This document shows positions 2,808-63,000 of a DNA stretch of 64,000 nucleotides, piece by piece (position 1 is the stretch's first letter; each line of letters begins with the position of its first letter). Source of the stretch: Salinimonas marina (lineage in GTDB: Bacteria > Pseudomonadota > Gammaproteobacteria > Enterobacterales > Alteromonadaceae); assembly GCF_015644725.1 (NCBI RefSeq), contig NZ_CP064795.1, forward strand, positions 618,501 to 682,500. Reading direction: 5' to 3'. The notes under the pieces were generated by a model. That model was given only the letters and a program-made list of their open reading frames with translations. It had not been told where the DNA came from and did not search any database. The translations under genes and the position numbers were made by a program.

Positions 2808-4619
2808 ATGGCAGTCTCCATTTTAAATGAACGTGATTTACACTTTATGCTGTATGAGTTGTTTGACGCCCAGGGGCTGTGCAGTCGCGAGCGGTTTAAC
2901 GATCACAATCAGGAAACCTTTGAAGCAGCACTGCAAACCGCTAAAAGCGTGGCCGCACGGTACCTATTGCCGATAAGACAAAAAACCGATCTGCAAAAGC
3001 CGGAATTTGATGGCCACCGGGCACACCTTATCCCTGAGATAAAAACAGCGGTTCAGGCGGTAGTCGATTCGGGGCTGGCCTCTGCCACCGCCGATTTTGA
3101 ACATGGCGGCATGCAATTACCGTCGCTGGTGGCCTGCGCCGTGAGTGCCCACCTTACCGCCTCGGGTATGAGCGTAATGGGATACACTACCCTGACCAAC
3201 GCCAATGCCAACCTGATTCAGGCCCATGGCAGTGCCGAACAAATTCAAAAGTGGGTCGCGCCAATGCGCGCAGGCCGCTTTACCGGCACCATGGCAATGA
3301 CCGAACCGGGCGCCGGCTCCGGCCTGGCCGACCTGATCACCAAAGCGGTGAAGCAGCCTGATGGTAGTTACCGTATTACCGGCAGCAAAATTTATATCTC
3401 CGGGGGCGATCATGATTTAAGTGACAACATTGTGCACCTGGTGCTGGCGCGAATTCAGGACGCCCCGAAAGGGGTTAAAGGCATTTCGTTGTTTATTGTG
3501 CCTAAGCGGATGGTCAATGAAGATGGCAGTGTGGGGGAGCCCAATGATGTGGCCCTGACCGGTTTGTTTCACAAGATGGGCGGGCATGCTATTACCTCCA
3601 CGGCGCTTAATTTTGGAGAAAAAGGCGGGGCGGTAGGTTATTTGGTGGGCGAAGCAAATATGGGACTGAGTTATATGTTCCATATGATGAACGAAGCCCG
3701 GCTGTTTGTTGGCATGGGGGCCACGGTGATGGCGCTGGCCGGCTACCAGTATTCACTCAACTATGCCAAAGAACGGCCCCAGGGGCGCTTGCTAAGCGAG
3801 AAAAATCCTGAGTCGGCACCGGTAAATATTATTGAGCACAGTGATGTAAAACGGATGCTGCTGGCGCAAAAAGCCTATGCTGAAGGGGCTCTGGCCCTAT
3901 GTTTATTTGGCGCGCGCCTGCATGATGATGAAAAAACCGCGGATACGCCGGAACAGCGCAAGGCCGGACATACGTTGCTGGATTTTTTGACCCCCATCAT
4001 TAAAACCTGGCCTTCTGAATACGGCTTAAAAGCCAATCACTATGCGATACAGGTTTTGGGTGGTGCAGGGTATACCAATGAGCATCCAGTGGAGATGTTC
4101 TATCGCGAAAACCGCCTGAATCCGATCCATGAGGGAACAACCGGGATCCAGTCGATGGATCTGCTGGGCCGCAAAGTACCAGCAAATGATTTTTCGGGCT
4201 ATCAGGCTTGTCTGGACGCCATGCAGCGTACGATTAGCCAGGCAGCGGAACAGCCGGCGTTAAAAGAGTATGCCAACGCGCTAGCAGAGGCCATCCGCAC
4301 CCTGGATAGCACCACCAAAACCGTGCTGGCGGCGACCCGTGCGATGAGCATTGATGCGGCCTTTTCCAATTCGGTGAAGTATCTGGAGGTATTCGGTCAT
4401 GTGGTTATTGCCTGGATGTGGCTTAAACAAGGCCTGGTAGCCAATCAGGCATTGACTGCCCAGCCTGGTATCAGTGATAGCGAAAAGCATTTTTATCAGG
4501 GCAAGCTGCATACTTTACAATTTTTCTTTCGCAGCGAGCTGCCTGAGATCAACCACTGGGCCGCGCTCATTAGCCAGCTGGATACCACCAACCACGAGAT
4601 GCAAAGCGAGTGGTTTTAA
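2808..4619 (+). CDS. Acyl-CoA dehydrogenase (long form, C-terminal extension)
   Basis: This 603-residue flavoprotein performs the FAD-dependent alpha,beta-dehydrogenation of acyl-CoA thioesters. The acyl-CoA dehydrogenase signature MAMTEPGAGSGLADL is present at about residues 163-177. The C-terminal catalytic region carries YRENRLNPIHEGTTGIQ (about 430-446) and is followed by the roughly 120-residue ACDH_C-type extension that explains the length (most members have about 380-400 residues). It is the first gene of a three-gene operon with a MaoC hydratase and an SDR, giving oxidation, hydration and a second oxidation of an acyl-CoA, as in beta-oxidation. The substrate chain length cannot be read from the sequence. 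Confidence 0.93.
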   Translation: MAVSILNERDLHFMLYELFDAQGLCSRERFNDHNQETFEAALQTAKSVAARYLLPIRQKTDLQKPEFDGHRAHLIPEIKTAVQAVVDSGLASATADFEHGGMQLPSLVACAVSAHLTASGMSVMGYTTLTNANANLIQAHGSAEQIQKWVAPMRAGRFTGTMAMTEPGAGSGLADLITKAVKQPDGSYRITGSKIYISGGDHDLSDNIVHLVLARIQDAPKGVKGISLFIVPKRMVNEDGSVGEPNDVALTGLFHKMGGHAITSTALNFGEKGGAVGYLVGEANMGLSYMFHMMNEARLFVGMGATVMALAGYQYSLNYAKERPQGRLLSEKNPESAPVNIIEHSDVKRMLLAQKAYAEGALALCLFGARLHDDEKTADTPEQRKAGHTLLDFLTPIIKTWPSEYGLKANHYAIQVLGGAGYTNEHPVEMFYRENRLNPIHEGTTGIQSMDLLGRKVPANDFSGYQACLDAMQRTISQAAEQPALKEYANALAEAIRTLDSTTKTVLAATRAMSIDAAFSNSVKYLEVFGHVVIAWMWLKQGLVANQALTAQPGISDSEKHFYQGKLHTLQFFFRSELPEINHWAALISQLDTTNHEMQSEWF

Positions 4620-7102: not shown

Positions 7103-7477
7103 TGAGTTGATGAGAAATATTTGCGCCTGAAGATTGGCCTCTTGGGTTTCTCAGAACTAATAAAGTGTACTGACTAATACATGAGTTAGCCCAAATTTGA
7201 CTGTTTTCACGTCTTTAAGGACGGAAAGACAATTCCGCTAAGAGCGTTTTGCGAACGGTCACCACTCAGAGGATGGTGGTCTGCTTAAGACAAGGAGCAG
7301 ACGATCAACGATCTTATTTCCTACTTCTCGACAAACAAAAATCATTGGTTCTGCGTTTATATTTTTACCAAACTACATAATTATTTGCGATTTTTTGACA
7401 AGTTCGGGCGTCCATGACAGCTTAGGTTAACTCAACTATCGATGAAACCCGTGCTTGTTCGAGAAAAGGAATTCCAA
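7103..7477. other. Intergenic, AT-rich, no gene seen
   Basis: No convincing coding frame is present. From about here to 13.9 kb the base composition falls clearly below that of the flanking backbone, so this is the probable left edge of the accessory stretch. A short imperfect hairpin lies around 7215-7245. Confidence 0.5.
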
Positions 7478-8650
7478 ATGTATCAGAAACTTGCTTGTAT
7501 TTTTATCGGCACATTACTAAGCCTTAGCTTTCACGCAACCGCTAAAGTACGCGGCGAAGCTATGGTTACAACTGTAACATCGGAAATATTGAGTGAGTCG
7601 CGGGAACTGCTTATTCACTTACCCAATAATTACTCACGCTACGAAGACACAACTTACCCTGTTTTATATTTGTTAGACGGCCAGCGCAACTTTGCGCATA
7701 CAGTAGGCACGCTAGACCTTCTCAATCAGTCTGGTATGGCGCAAGAGATGATAATTGTCGGTATCACAAACACCGAGCGTACACGAGATTTCACACCTAC
7801 CTATGATGAAAGCTATAACGAGTGGGGAATATCAGGTGGTGCAGACAACTTTTTAGATTTTCTAGAGAAAGAGCTAAAGCCGCATGTAAAGTCGAATTAT
7901 CGTACTAATAATTACGCAATTCTTTCTGGGCATTCTTTAAGCGCCCTATTCACCGTATACGCCCTGCATGAACGGCCTGATATGTTTCAAGCATACTTCG
8001 CTTTTAGCCCAAGCCTGTGGTGGCACGAAGAAGTGATATTTCCAGAAGCAGAAAAGTTTTATAGCGCAGAACAAGACCTGAATAAATACCTTTATGTAAA
8101 TATGGGCAGCGAAGGCGGACACATGCTGAGCGCATTCCAGCGTTACTCTGAACTGCTGAATAATAGTACACGAAAAGGGTTTACCTTTGATACCGAGCTA
8201 GATACATCTGAAAGCCACAATACCACTGCGCTTGCAGGTATGAGCTTGGCCCTTCAAAAACAGCTTAATTCGTTACGCCCGACAGGTGCACTAATACAAG
8301 AAGGTCTCCATGCGGTACAACGATACTATAAAGACCTTTCTGAAAAATACGGCTTTCAGGCAAAGCCAGAATACAAAGCAGTAAATCACGCAGGCTATGC
8401 GGAGTTAAACAAAAAAGACTTCGAGTCGGCAATTGCCATTTTTAAGAAAAACGTTACTAGATTCCCTAACAAGTCTGACGCCTACGACAGCTTAGCAGAT
8501 GGCTATGAAGCTAAAGGCGATTTAGCCATGGCGCTTAAGATGAGGAAGAAAGCGTTAGCGATGAGCTATGAAGAAAATGTTGAGAACGGTGCTTATAAAA
8601 CGCGATTGAATAATTTAGAGAAAAAGATCGGTAAAGGCGTAAAAAAGTAA
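7478..8650 (+). CDS. Secreted alpha/beta-hydrolase esterase with C-terminal TPR
   Basis: The protein has about 390 residues from the ATG at 7478. It begins with a signal peptide (MYQKLACIFIGTLLSLSFHATA) and then a putative-esterase (esterase D/IroE-like) domain. The nucleophile elbow is GHSLSAL, with LLDGQRNF upstream. Residues about 290-385 form helical TPR-like repeats (KKDFESAIAIFKKN, then YDSLADGYEAKGDLAMALK). The family hydrolyses esters in the periplasm or at the cell surface, including siderophore esters in some members; the substrate here is unknown. I prefer the internal ATG because the signal peptide starts there. It is AT-richer than the backbone and is followed 43 bases later by an IS256 element. 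Confidence 0.87.
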   Translation: MYQKLACIFIGTLLSLSFHATAKVRGEAMVTTVTSEILSESRELLIHLPNNYSRYEDTTYPVLYLLDGQRNFAHTVGTLDLLNQSGMAQEMIIVGITNTERTRDFTPTYDESYNEWGISGGADNFLDFLEKELKPHVKSNYRTNNYAILSGHSLSALFTVYALHERPDMFQAYFAFSPSLWWHEEVIFPEAEKFYSAEQDLNKYLYVNMGSEGGHMLSAFQRYSELLNNSTRKGFTFDTELDTSESHNTTALAGMSLALQKQLNSLRPTGALIQEGLHAVQRYYKDLSEKYGFQAKPEYKAVNHAGYAELNKKDFESAIAIFKKNVTRFPNKSDAYDSLADGYEAKGDLAMALKMRKKALAMSYEENVENGAYKTRLNNLEKKIGKGVKK

Positions 8651-51279: not shown

Positions 51280-51507
51280 GACGGTTGCTCCGTTAGTTAT
51301 TGATTGCCATTTAATTTCAATAAGTTGAAGCAGTTGCCATGCCAGTTGATAAGTCTAAATATTTCAACGCCTTGCAACATGAGAGGGGCGGGGCGTAGAC
51401 GGTTATCGCTAAATACTGGTCAATCAAACCACTTTCTGATTGTTCAGATAATCCGTCTTAAAGTATGTTTCTGCGTTTGCGCATTTGGTTCTTTTAAATG
51501 TGCATGC

Positions 51508-51809
51508 TCAGCGCCTTACCTGGGCAAGTGTGGTGAATGGAAAGCCAGGTCGTGCCGTGCACATACAAACACTGAAGCCAAAGAAAAGCTTCAAATAATG
51601 GTGGATGTCAGTATTTATAAAGAGTTCGTCAAAGAGGAGCCAGGCAGGTACACCTAAAATACAGGTTGCGAGGACAGCTGAAAAATACTCACGGTTAGCG
51701 TAGTGCCACAGGTTTGGCATGTAATTGTTTCGTAGACTAATAGCTTTATTTTCTCAAGCATCCCAATATTGCTTTTGCAGCAAGGACAACGACTTTCATT
51801 TATACGCAT
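51508..51809 (-). pseudogene. Microcin-cassette copy 1: zinc-ribbon membrane protein (putative immunity), frameshifted
   Basis: From the ATG at 51809 the frame codes MRINESRCPCCKSNIG and ITCQTCGTTLTVSIF, a four-cysteine zinc ribbon. It breaks at the T run (plus-strand A5 at 51681-51685). In the next frame the membrane part follows (AVLATCILGVPAWLLFDE and YLKLFFGFSVCMC) to the stop at 51508. The intact paralogue at 61331-61630 has six bases in the same run instead of five, so the difference is exactly one base. It lies downstream of a precursor-peptide copy that has lost its start codon, which suggests decay of the whole cassette. Confidence 0.75.
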
Positions 51810-51827
51810 GGTTACGCTTCACAAATG

Positions 51828-51851
51828 AGCGTACGGGCAAGGCCGTACGCT
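51828..51851 (-). terminator. Hairpin between precursor and putative immunity gene, copy 1
   Basis: AGCGTACGG and CCGTACGCT form a perfect stem between the two genes. The equivalent hairpin is conserved in copy 2 at 61649-61672, so it is probably an attenuator that sets the ratio of peptide to immunity transcripts. Confidence 0.6.
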
Positions 51852-51858
51852 ATTACAG

Positions 51859-52032
51859 CTAGGGGATCATTGACTTGGCACCGTCATACAAGGCTCCGCC
51901 GGCCATAGTTTGTGAAACAAACCTTACCGAATTATATGATCGATAAGCCCAAACGGCCCCTACACCTACCCAGTAAAGCGCTACTATTCCGCCGCTAATA
52001 TCATTGGTTTCCTCAACCGTCAGTTCTCTTAC
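51859..52032 (-). pseudogene. Microcin-cassette copy 1: GG-leader precursor lacking a start codon
   Basis: The frame encodes RELTVEETNDISGG, a double-glycine leader, and a mature part starting IVALYWVGVGAVWAYRSY and ending GALYDGAKSMIP. It is nearly identical to the intact precursor at 61680-61853. The position of the ATG holds GTA instead, and the upstream frame has a TGA, so no start is available. With the frameshifted partner gene, this cassette is probably a relic. Confidence 0.72.
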
Positions 52033-52061
52033 TTCATATCCCCTTTCATTGAAATTTCATG

Positions 52062-52457
52062 TCCTGCTAATTATAGATTCATTAGCGTAATAAAATTTAC
52101 AGAAGCTTAAGGTCCAATGTAACTGAACTTAAGTGCAATATTTGAGTTAAATTTATTGCTAAATCGCACTGAATGAAGCGGTAATGCAAAGCAAAAAAGT
52201 GACTGTTACATTTTCCTTTTAAAATTTGTTTGGATGGTGGTTTACATATTTATAGTGTTCAATAAAACACGCTTTTTGTACAGTTTTTTAAAAAGCAAAA
52301 CTGTTTATTCTGGAGTAGGCCTTTAGAGGTAAAGGCTAGTTTCAGATGGTTTATGGGTTTAAGTTTTATCGTATTCCATAAGTCCTTCTATTTTTGATTT
52401 TTTGTGAAGAGGCAAAAATCTGCCTTACGCAATAAGATGATTTCAGGGAAAATAAAT
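52062..52457. promoter_or_regulatory. AT-rich divergent control region between the two microcin units
   Basis: The part up to about 52170 is homologous to 61880-61990 upstream of the intact cassette (shared ATTCATTAGCG and AAAATTTACAGAAGC), so it holds the cassette promoter. From 52180 a direct-repeat segment (GGTAATGCAAAGCAA) occurs that recurs at 54286. The remainder is the leader of the ColV-like gene; a stem around CTGTTTATTCTGG may fold but is not convincing. Confidence 0.5.
52180..52206 (+). repeat. Direct repeat, left copy (GGTAATGCAAAGCAA type)
   Basis: The left copy of a 27-base repeat, almost identical to 54286-54313. Together they bracket the ColV-like peptide, its partner and the IS30 element. 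Confidence 0.55.
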
Positions 52458-52709
52458 ATGTATGAATTAGATATATATGAGATGGAAAAGGTAAATGGTG
52501 GAATTTTGGTCAATGTTGGGATGGGTGTGGTAGGAGCCGCTTCCTCTATGGCTGGCTATGCGATGAGCGGCTGGGGCTCAGGTTTGAGTGGGTCAGGATT
52601 TGCTGGTGCCGCTGCTGGTGGTTTTGTATGGGGCGCAGGTGGCTTTAATGCAGTGAGCGCAACAGCAGGGGCTGCCACGGCAGGCTTTGTTACATATAAA
52701 TTAAGATAA
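52458..52709 (+). CDS. ColV-like microcin precursor with double-glycine leader
   Basis: The ATG at 52458 gives 83 residues. The leader MYELDIYEMEKVNGG has Leu at -12, Glu at -8, Val at -4 and Gly-Gly, the consensus for export and cleavage by C39-peptidase ABC transporters. The mature 68 residues (ILVNVGMGVVGAASSMAGY onwards) are Gly/Ala/Ser rich with many GxxxG motifs and few charges, like class IIa microcin V or two-peptide bacteriocins that insert in membranes. The longer GTG frame upstream (52404) would add residues before the leader and is unlikely. A small membrane protein follows after 61 bases. Antibacterial activity is inferred. Confidence 0.75.
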   Translation: MYELDIYEMEKVNGGILVNVGMGVVGAASSMAGYAMSGWGSGLSGSGFAGAAAGGFVWGAGGFNAVSATAGAATAGFVTYKLR

Positions 52710-52770
52710 CGAAAGTAATGGTAAAGTAGGGCTATATTAAAATATGGCTCTATTTTTAAAAGAAGGTAAT

Positions 52771-52947
52771 ATGAATAAATTAAAGTATAAAAAGATAGCT
52801 TCTATAGTCTTTTCAAGTCTGTCGGCAATTTTAATAAACGAAATAATTACGTTTTGTATTACTGACTTCGATAGAAATTTAAGTGTTGTTTTTGTTGCCA
52901 TTATTTCTGCCAGTATAATGGGAGAGCTTTGGCCGGAGGAGGTCTGA
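52771..52947 (+). CDS. Small two-helix membrane protein, putative microcin immunity protein
   Basis: From the ATG at 52771 (AAGGTAAT just upstream) the gene encodes 58 residues: a basic start (MNKLKYKKIA), a hydrophobic helix SIVFSSLSAILINEIITFCI and a second SVVFVAIISASIMGEL, ending WPEEV. Size, topology and position directly after the precursor match immunity proteins of class II microcins, which sit in the inner membrane and protect the producer. There is no sequence proof. It is very AT-rich, like the precursor. Confidence 0.6.
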   Translation: MNKLKYKKIASIVFSSLSAILINEIITFCITDFDRNLSVVFVAIISASIMGELWPEEV

Positions 52948-61330: not shown

Positions 61331-61630
61331 TCAACGCCTTACCTGGACAAGTGTGGAGAATGGAAAGCCAAGTCTCGCCGTGCACATACAAACACTGAAG
61401 CCTAAAAGAAGCTTCAAATAGTTGTGGTTGTCATTAATTATGAGTTCGTCGAAAATGAGCCAAGCGGGTACGCCCAAAATACAGGTTGCAAGTACAGCTG
61501 AAAAAATACTAACGGTAAACGTAGTATCACAGGTTTGGCATGTAATTGTTTCGTGTACTAATAGCTCTGTTTTCTTAGACAGCTCTATAATGCTTTTGCA
61601 ACAAGGACAGTGACTTTCGTGTATACGCAC
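61331..61630 (-). CDS. Microcin-cassette copy 2: zinc-ribbon two-helix membrane protein (putative immunity)
   Basis: This intact 99-residue protein has a CPCC (about residues 8-11) and CQTC (about 33-36) zinc ribbon: MRIHESHCPCCKSIIEL and ETITCQTCDTTFTV. Two membrane helices follow, VSIFSAVLATCILGVPAWLI and YLKLLLGFSVCMC. It is the second gene after the GG-leader precursor on the same strand, separated by a conserved hairpin. Position and membrane topology suggest an immunity protein. The cytosolic zinc ribbon is unusual for such proteins and makes it a candidate for a new family. Confidence 0.65.
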   Translation of the reverse strand: MRIHESHCPCCKSIIELSKKTELLVHETITCQTCDTTFTVSIFSAVLATCILGVPAWLIFDELIINDNHNYLKLLLGFSVCMCTARLGFPFSTLVQVRR

Positions 61631-61648
61631 TTTTACGCTTCCAAAATA

Positions 61649-61672
61649 AGCGTACGGCTTTAGCCGTACGCT
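61649..61672 (-). terminator. Hairpin between precursor and putative immunity gene, copy 2
   Basis: AGCGTACGGCT pairs with AGCCGTACGCT, followed on the minus strand by TTATTTT. It is conserved in position and sequence with the copy 1 hairpin, as expected for a functional attenuator. Confidence 0.65.
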
Positions 61673-61679
61673 ATTATAG

Positions 61680-61853
61680 CTAGCGGGCTATCGACTTAGC
61701 ACCGTCGTACAAAGCTCCGCCAGCCATAGCTTGAGAAACAAACCTTACGGTTTTATATGAGCGATAAGCCCATACTGCTCCTGCACCTACCCAATAAAGC
61801 GCTACTATCCCGCCATTAATATCGTTCGTTTCCTTGACCGTTAGTTCTCTCAT
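61680..61853 (-). CDS. Microcin-cassette copy 2: GG-leader microcin precursor, intact
   Basis: The ATG at 61853 (AAAGGATATGAA just upstream) starts 57 residues. The leader MRELTVKETNDINGG has Leu at -12, Glu at -8, Ile at -4 and Gly-Gly. The 42-residue mature part starts IVALYWVGAGAVWAYRSYK and ends MAGGALYDGAKSIAR: a tryptophan/tyrosine-rich hydrophobic start, then GG and a basic end. I read it as a class II microcin/bacteriocin precursor cleaved after Gly-Gly during export. A longer upstream frame exists but would add a non-leader segment. No exporter gene is nearby. Confidence 0.78.
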   Translation of the reverse strand: MRELTVKETNDINGGIVALYWVGAGAVWAYRSYKTVRFVSQAMAGGALYDGAKSIAR

Positions 61854-62060
61854 TTCATATCCTTTTTCATTAAAACTCCATGTTCCGCTAATGATATATT
61901 CATTAGCGAGATAAAATTTACAGAAGCGTAAGGGCAAATGTAACTGAACTAATGTTCTATATTGTAGTTGAGTCTTGTGCCAAATCGCGCTGCAATTATA
62001 GACCTGTTGAAGTGACCTTTCCCCTGAACTAGCACCACTCTTTCGATGAGTTTTTTCATA

Positions 62061-62879
62061 TTATGCTGCCTGTTTCGCATACTCAACAGGCGGCAGATAA
62101 TTCAGTGAGCTATGTGGCCGAACATGGTTGTAATGCTCACGCCATAGATTTACTTCGTATCTTGCCTCGTCCATTGTTCTAAACCAATGCTGATTCAGAC
62201 ATTCGTTTCTGAACTTGCCGTTAAGGCTTTCCACGAAGGCATTTTGGGTCGGTTTACCAGGCTGGATAAAGCCAAGCTCAACACCCGTTTCCTTGCTCCA
62301 GAAGAACATCGCCTTACTGGTAAATTCTGTTCCGTTGTCGCAAATAACCTTTGCTGGTTTTCCTCGTTGCTCAATGAGCTGACTCAGGAAGCGTGCAACC
62401 TGACGACCGCTGATGGAGACAGAAACTAGTTGGCCGACCATTTCGCGAGAGTAATCGTCTACCACGTTCAGTACCCTAAAGCGCCTGCCGTTGCTAAGTT
62501 GATCAGATACGAAATCCATAGACCAGCGTTGATCTGGTGCTGTTGGTACCTCAAGCGGTTGTCTTGGTCGAGTCAGCTTCTTGCGCTTCTTCGTCCTTAC
62601 CTGCAACGCCTCTTCGGTATAAAGGCGGTAGGTATGCTTGCGGTTCACAACAAGCCCTTCGCCTTTGAGTAAACCATGCAGCATCAAATAACCATACCGA
62701 GGATACTGTGATGCTAATTCTTTCAACCGTGCGCGCACAGCGCTATCAGGCTTTGTCTTATGGCAATATCTGAATGCGGTTCGGCTGACACCAGCAAGCT
62801 TGCAGGCAACCCGTTCACTGAGCTTATATGCATCAATAAGGTGACGGGCGACAGGCTTTCTTGCTGCTGGCGTTACCAC
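62061..62879 (-). CDS. IS3-family transposase OrfB
   Basis: This 272-residue transposase has an HTH_21 start (SERVACKLAGVSRTAFRYCH) and an rve integrase core: RWSMDFVSDQL (first Asp), KVICDNGTEFTS (second Asp) and FIQPGKPTQNAFVESLNGKF (catalytic Glu). It ends RPHSSLNYLPPVEYAKQAA. It is normally made as an OrfAB fusion by -1 frameshifting at the A6G heptamer 62879-62885. OrfB is full length, but the orfA part is truncated. Confidence 0.92.
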   Translation of the reverse strand: MVTPAARKPVARHLIDAYKLSERVACKLAGVSRTAFRYCHKTKPDSAVRARLKELASQYPRYGYLMLHGLLKGEGLVVNRKHTYRLYTEEALQVRTKKRKKLTRPRQPLEVPTAPDQRWSMDFVSDQLSNGRRFRVLNVVDDYSREMVGQLVSVSISGRQVARFLSQLIEQRGKPAKVICDNGTEFTSKAMFFWSKETGVELGFIQPGKPTQNAFVESLNGKFRNECLNQHWFRTMDEARYEVNLWREHYNHVRPHSSLNYLPPVEYAKQAA

Positions 62880-63000
62880 TTTTTTGAAAGCACATCCTTC
62901 ATCGCTTCTACTTCTAAGAGCTTGTCAGCCAGCATCTTTTTCAGCTTGTTGTTCTCAGACTCAAGCTCTTTTAAGCGCTTGGTTTCGTTAACCTCATGGC
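62873..63000 (-). pseudogene. IS3-family OrfA, 3' fragment
   Basis: Only the last roughly 40 residues are left: NETKRLKELESENNKLKKML, then DKLLEVEAMKDVLSKKW, the leucine-zipper end of OrfA. The preceding frame is unrelated, tRNA-flanking DNA. The slippery sequence AAAAAAG for OrfAB fusion is still present at its end (62879-62885). Confidence 0.82.

Follow-up and report, generated by a model that had tools for sequence, protein, structure and literature searches.

Class II microcins are made with a leader of 15-18 aa that ends in GG or GA and have a mature size of about 5-10 kDa, according to PMC10233263 and PMC9746304. As described in the same papers, known microcin immunity proteins range from 51 to 216 aa, and those of class II, which resemble one another in sequence little or not at all, are looked for by their position and size (PMC10233263, PMC9746304); PMC10233263 counts 15 known microcins, all from Enterobacteriaceae. 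The cassette analysed here lies in a 64,000-nucleotide stretch of Salinimonas marina DNA (hereafter the window). Like the class II microcins (microcin V, L, N, H47 and others), it combines a 15-residue double-glycine leader with an adjacent gene for a small membrane partner, and the genome encodes a C39 ABC exporter, an HlyD-type adaptor and a TolC-type protein. Unlike them, the partner carries a zinc ribbon, the core peptide has no family match, the cassette contains no exporter genes, the mature peptide of 42 residues falls marginally below the usual size range, and there is no siderophore tail.

Other described systems share single traits with the loci reported below. Two-peptide (class IIb) bacteriocins of Gram-positive bacteria resemble the loci G426, G455 and G449, in which one or two partner genes come after a pair of short GG precursors, whereas the window cassette encodes one peptide in a Gram-negative host with an adaptor. 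Polymorphic toxin systems (CDI, Rhs) have displaced toxin-immunity cassettes. Locus G966 is similar in that three extra GG precursors each follow a copied adaptor 3' end and have varied partners; however, these are short exported peptides and not C-terminal toxin domains, and the window cassettes have no detectable adaptor tail. The zinc-ribbon membrane protein (ZRP) scores below the curated cut-offs of both TIGR04104 (cxxc_20_cxxc; 9.2 bits against 45 bits) and the LysW-type zinc ribbons. Among titles and abstract openings of open-licence literature, we found neither a zinc-ribbon microcin immunity protein nor such a cassette in Alteromonas. We consider it probable that the window carries a class II microcin-like toxin-immunity cassette that lacks an exporter of its own. 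We call it microcin-like rather than microcin because of the mature size of 4.5 kDa, and because antibacterial activity and specific immunity are deduced from sequence.

Organisation of the cassette

The precursor translation divides at the double glycine into MRELTVKETNDINGG and IVALYWVGAGAVWAYRSYKTVRFVSQAMAGGALYDGAKSIAR (Table 1). The original prediction had described a 57-residue precursor matching the leader consensus at -12, -8, -4 and -2/-1, and the translation bears this out, with L, E, I and GG at these positions; length and GG ending are those expected of a putative class II microcin leader. In a mechanical list of open reading frames the precursor has 85 aa and begins at an upstream TTG (61937), but the relatives found in the database begin either at this ATG or 6 aa upstream. 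The GG is kept in 9/9 aligned precursors, whose identity to the window precursor is as low as 47%. Over 15 pairs from the 6 intact copies in the genus, pN/pS is 0.15 (pS 0.39, pN 0.058), with 0.28 for the leader and 0.066 for the core, values which indicate strong purifying selection on the core peptide. The precursor matched no Pfam or NCBIfam family above cut-off. Its core, with a mass of about 4525 Da, ends in ...GGALYDGAKSIAR and lacks a siderophore-type Ser/Gly-rich C-terminus.

The same prediction had placed next to it a 99-residue protein with a CPCC/CQTC ribbon and two membrane helices, on which the reading frame, the AlphaFold2 model and hydropathy now agree. The cysteine motifs are C8-P-C-C11 and C31-Q-T-C34, with 20 positions from C11 to C31, and the four cysteines are kept in 10/10 aligned ZRPs at identities to the window ZRP as low as 17%. 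The model (mean pLDDT 78) has helices at H42-63 and H70-87, and two hydropathy peaks are found in all 12 ZRPs checked. Among the 7 ZRPs of the genus (21 pairs), pN/pS is 0.31, the zinc part (0.45) being looser than the helices (0.22). The protein would bind zinc, and from its positive residues and reduced cysteines the ribbon is plausibly on the cytosolic side. With 99 aa, two predicted helices and a gap of 49 nt from the precursor, ZRP has the size and position of a putative microcin immunity protein, and we regard it as a candidate immunity family.

Table 1. Features of the cassette and of its second copy in the window
Feature	Position	Strand	Basis or detail
ZRP gene, 99 aa, GTG start, candidate immunity protein	61331..61630	-	ORF, profiles, AlphaFold2
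ZRP membrane helices (predicted)	about 61442-61507 and 61370-61423	-	AlphaFold2, hydropathy
Zinc ribbon of ZRP, C8-C34	61529-61609	-	Cys motifs
Terminator-like stem-loop between genes, 10 pairs, loop 4	61649-61672	-	folding
Precursor gene, 57 aa, ATG start	61680..61853	-	ORF reading, relatives' alignment, pN/pS
Precursor core, 42 aa, 4.5 kDa, pI about 10	61683-61808	-	IVALYWVGAGAVWAYRSYKTVRFVSQAMAGGALYDGAKSIAR
Double-glycine leader of precursor, 15 residues	61809-61853	-	MRELTVKETNDINGG
Conserved upstream block, likely promoter region	61854..62001	-	alignment of genus copies
IS3-like element directly upstream of cassette	62013..62995	-	983 bp, transposase ORF 62061-62879
Second copy, ZRP, frameshift	51508..51809	-	alignment
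Second copy, precursor, GTA in place of start ATG	51859..52032	-	alignment

A stem-loop was predicted in all 15 precursor-ZRP gaps folded (4 from the genus, 11 from elsewhere), so the hairpin initially proposed as conserved does recur, although in one gap (L022, z -1.0) it is no better than shuffled sequence; the other 14 have z <= -2.2 against mononucleotide shuffles. In the G053 copy, where the precursor is broken, the strong stem is missing. Since the stems outside the genus look unrelated to those within it, what seems to be retained is position and form, not sequence. The simplest reading would be attenuation between precursor and ZRP.

Upstream of the precursor, the conserved block reaches about 61962 in 8 genus copies and about 62001 in some. 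It contains a palindrome, CGCTAATGATATATTCATTAGCG (61886-61908), present in the 8 genus copies with small changes, its arms differing by 1-2 bases in several of them; this is possibly an operator. The adjoining IS3-like element, 88% identical to a copy in Salinimonas chungwhensis (L021), spares the block.

Distribution of the pair and its exporters

The precursor was found in 7/98 genomes, all among the 59 of the window's genus, with ZRP directly next to it each time. These genomes hold 8 copies, two of them in the window genome, and named carriers are Salinimonas chungwhensis, Alteromonas aquimaris and Alteromonas indica. That adjacent precursor and zinc-ribbon genes would recur elsewhere had been proposed as the test of a new family, and the pattern is present in 8/8 genus copies and in other genera. 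A database search returned four relatives of the precursor and five of ZRP, all close. Homology to the window cassette spans 648-868 bp; both genes look intact in 6/8 copies and the precursor is broken in the other two. One is in G053, with a GTA start codon and an in-frame TAG. The other is the second window copy (about 51496-52167), whose precursor is probably a pseudogene, as GTA stands where ATG should be. One conserved chromosomal site for the cassette was considered and rejected, since flanks mostly differ between genomes, with the exceptions that G004 and G022 have several neighbours in common and that the second window copy and G053 both have an IS30-like element and the second GG-peptide pair close by, in different order. 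For G012, the contig offers only 257 bp upstream for this comparison.

The close precursor family is rare, as profile searches indicate: the precursor profile A4 matched the window's own genome alone among 369 genomes of the class, A3 matched G121 alone among 7 genomes of its family, and A6, again a precursor profile, matched 6/394 genomes of the order, including G215 (E 8e-4). ZRP reaches further. The ZRP profile A1 over 394 genomes of the order recovered divergent pairs in G121, G129 and G426; in the family of G426 (152 genomes), profile A3 brought in G455 and G449 as well. The wider profile A5 matched 66 of 395 genomes of the family, of which the 18 best-scoring outside the genus, apart from G129, were read; the weaker matches, several in long frames, are uncounted. 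These 18 and the five just named make up 23 non-genus loci, fetched as stretches of 8-15 kb, none of which belonged to the profile that first found it. Four matches stand outside this set: G071 (unrelated, with stops in frame and inside another gene), G237 and G447 (judged unrelated and dropped before counting) and G533 (dropped; a 73-aa ORF, no peptide seen).

A full-length C39 exporter is encoded at 15 of the 23 loci, and a GG peptide at 19. Judged by the window's genus, where a genome has 0 to 4 C39 matches and some of these are not exporters, this closeness is far above chance. In G121, G426, G455 and G449 the order is adaptor, C39 ABC exporter, GG peptide(s) and ZRP, with exporter and HlyD-type adaptor confirmed by Pfam; both GG peptides of G426 lie between exporter and ZRP, and G449 has two ZRPs in tandem. 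No exporter was seen near the G129 pair. The leader pattern gives some false matches (e.g., L090 8882-9274 and L095 3069-3329), the one in L095 being uncounted as a GG peptide. In L083 a further GG-type peptide frame is hidden in the gap between the GG peptide and the ZRP gene (4237-4396, minus strand), so that this locus is probably a two-peptide system. In L079 a ZRP gene for which no peptide was found (7460-7783) is preceded by a 110-aa membrane-protein-like ORF, and ahead of that lies a larger ORF, UmuC-like by eye; the ZRP and the 110-aa ORF may be orphan immunity genes that lack a toxin.

The window genome has two C39 matches. One is a 756-aa open frame for an ABC exporter that adjoins the adaptor gene, with Cys45, His118 and Asp134 as its triad (numbered in a 738-aa reading), 73 and 16 positions apart as in CvaB, for which the residue numbers are from PMC9746304; the other is a 227-aa protein without the ABC part. 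A single TolC-type protein exceeds the TIGR01844 cut-off. The exporter, adaptor and outer membrane protein of a class II microcin system are thus present in the genome, but exporter and adaptor are not at the cassette, which about 325 kb separate from the resident exporter. None of the 7 carrier genomes has a C39 match that shares a contig with a cassette and lies less than 300 kb from it. C39 matches do occur in 58/59 genomes of the genus, all 7 carriers included, so a free-standing cassette would usually find an exporter, and the window cassette may borrow the resident one. Near that exporter and a LuxR-type HTH gene, an 83-aa ORF with a GA-type leader-like start (L027 6948-7199, minus strand) is possibly its native cargo.

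Function of the pair and alternative readings

From these data we infer killing and immunity by the pair, along the following lines. The precursor would be synthesised in the cytosol. The resident C39-peptidase ABC transporter would remove its leader behind the double glycine and, together with the HlyD-type adaptor and the TolC-type channel, export the 42-residue cationic peptide, which would target the inner membrane of competing cells. ZRP would be the cognate immunity protein in the inner membrane of the producer, its zinc ribbon inside and its two helices recognising or blocking the peptide, while the stem-loop would make the precursor transcript more abundant than that of ZRP.

A two-helix membrane protein of about 100 aa beside the precursor is what known immunity proteins lead one to expect. 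In a Mantel comparison of 10 operons, ZRP divergence follows that of the core (r=0.32, p=0.008; partial r 0.32 given the exporter) and not that of the exporter (r=-0.05, p=0.57), an outcome to be taken as a leaning and not as proof because the set is small and chosen, with short peptides. It comprises 10/15 exporter-bearing loci, G1005, G937, G997, G1180 and G1156 being left out, and one peptide and one ZRP per operon, two of the peptides being one residue short. The immunity reading, already put forward in the original prediction, is strengthened by this result, by the ZRPs found without any peptide and by the other membrane proteins that fill the partner place in the G966 array; together with the exporterless pairs, these observations favour a peptide-specific partner, most simply immunity. 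Four points go beyond the original prediction: the window cassette's lack of an exporter, the decayed second copy, the two-peptide systems among relatives and the apparent exchange of cassettes. Counting against a toxin-immunity cassette are the lack of exporter genes near the window cassette, a precursor that has no family match and yields a mature peptide just under 5-10 kDa, the four of 23 loci with neither GG peptide nor exporter (L079, L080, L094, L095), the two broken precursors among 8 in the genus, and the five exporter-bearing loci in which the peptide is not directly before ZRP (G937, G997, G1180, G1156) or which are near copies (G1005, of G1084).

A further point against a toxin is that the core is more conserved than ZRP, and toxins often diversify. 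As the core is also more conserved than the leader, the same observation speaks for a peptide pheromone, in which the GG peptide would be a signal and ZRP its membrane receptor, with a cytosolic zinc ribbon acting on DNA or on a partner protein. GG peptides act as signals in other bacteria, and a cytosolic ribbon is plausible from the residues discussed above. Yet ZRP lacks any additional output domain and matches no family above cut-off, other membrane proteins including one of the Rce1/CPBP type occupy the partner place in one array, and tandem ZRPs and multi-peptide arrays suit toxin and immunity better, which leaves a pheromone improbable. That ZRP is an export or processing accessory bringing the precursor to the C39 exporter we hold to be very improbable: the ZRP gene does stand together with an exporter in 15 of the 23 non-genus loci, but it accompanies the peptide into exporterless cassettes in all 8 genus copies, only one of the five GG precursors in the G966 array has ZRP after it, and ZRP divergence is not that of the exporter.

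Compatible with the toxin-immunity reading of the family, the window cassette itself could be a decaying relic that is not produced. Its ZRP starts with GTG where the other six of the genus have ATG, its core ends in IAR instead of MIP or VIP, an insertion element lies directly upstream, the second copy in the window is broken and there is no dedicated exporter. Nonetheless, both reading frames are intact, the leader, GG, four cysteines and stem-loop are retained and the upstream block is undamaged, so we think decay rather unlikely. For the toxin-immunity reading, the ZRP signature (two cysteine pairs and two helices near a GG precursor) would allow direct searches, which would reveal microcin-like systems outside Enterobacteriaceae; it also raises the question of why an immunity protein should have a metal site.

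The G966 array and further peptide genes

Locus G966 contains an array of five GG precursors, the first of which follows the adaptor gene. Three further copies, 96-97% identical, of a ~180-bp block that covers the adaptor 3' end are present, and a different GG precursor comes after each; no such block accompanies the fifth precursor, which is close to the exporter. The partners of the five are a two-helix protein, a 69-aa two-helix protein, a ZRP, none seen, and a 227-aa Rce1/CPBP protein (PF02517, E 2.3e-19). CPBP proteins can serve in bacteriocin immunity. L083, L087 and L088 also contain short matches to the adaptor tail. Cassettes seem to be exchanged, and the array suggests a route for this exchange. 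Descent of the window cassettes from such an array is unsupported, as no adaptor tail was detected upstream of them.

Taken jointly, the loci could represent a polymorphic exported-peptide system of Alteromonadaceae and relatives, with membrane-anchored ZRPs as a new immunity family for double-glycine microcin-like peptides and with peptide-partner cassettes swapped at the export-adaptor 3' end as a landing pad, some of them, such as the window's, now being free-standing and using the host's existing C39 exporter. We regard the chances of this broader scheme as evenly balanced.

Other peptide genes were noticed beside the cassettes. At 52458-52947 (plus strand) the window encodes a GG-leader peptide of 83 aa with a Gly/Ala-rich core, followed by a 67-aa ORF in which a hydrophobic stretch was judged by eye. 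On sequence grounds this pair too is microcin-like; it is divergent from the decayed copy of the cassette, and a related stretch is present in G053 (L026). In Salinimonas chungwhensis, two adjoining ORFs with GG/GA leaders lie near the IS3-like copy (L021 2445-2892, minus strand) and give sub-threshold matches to Bacteriocin_IIc and MccV.
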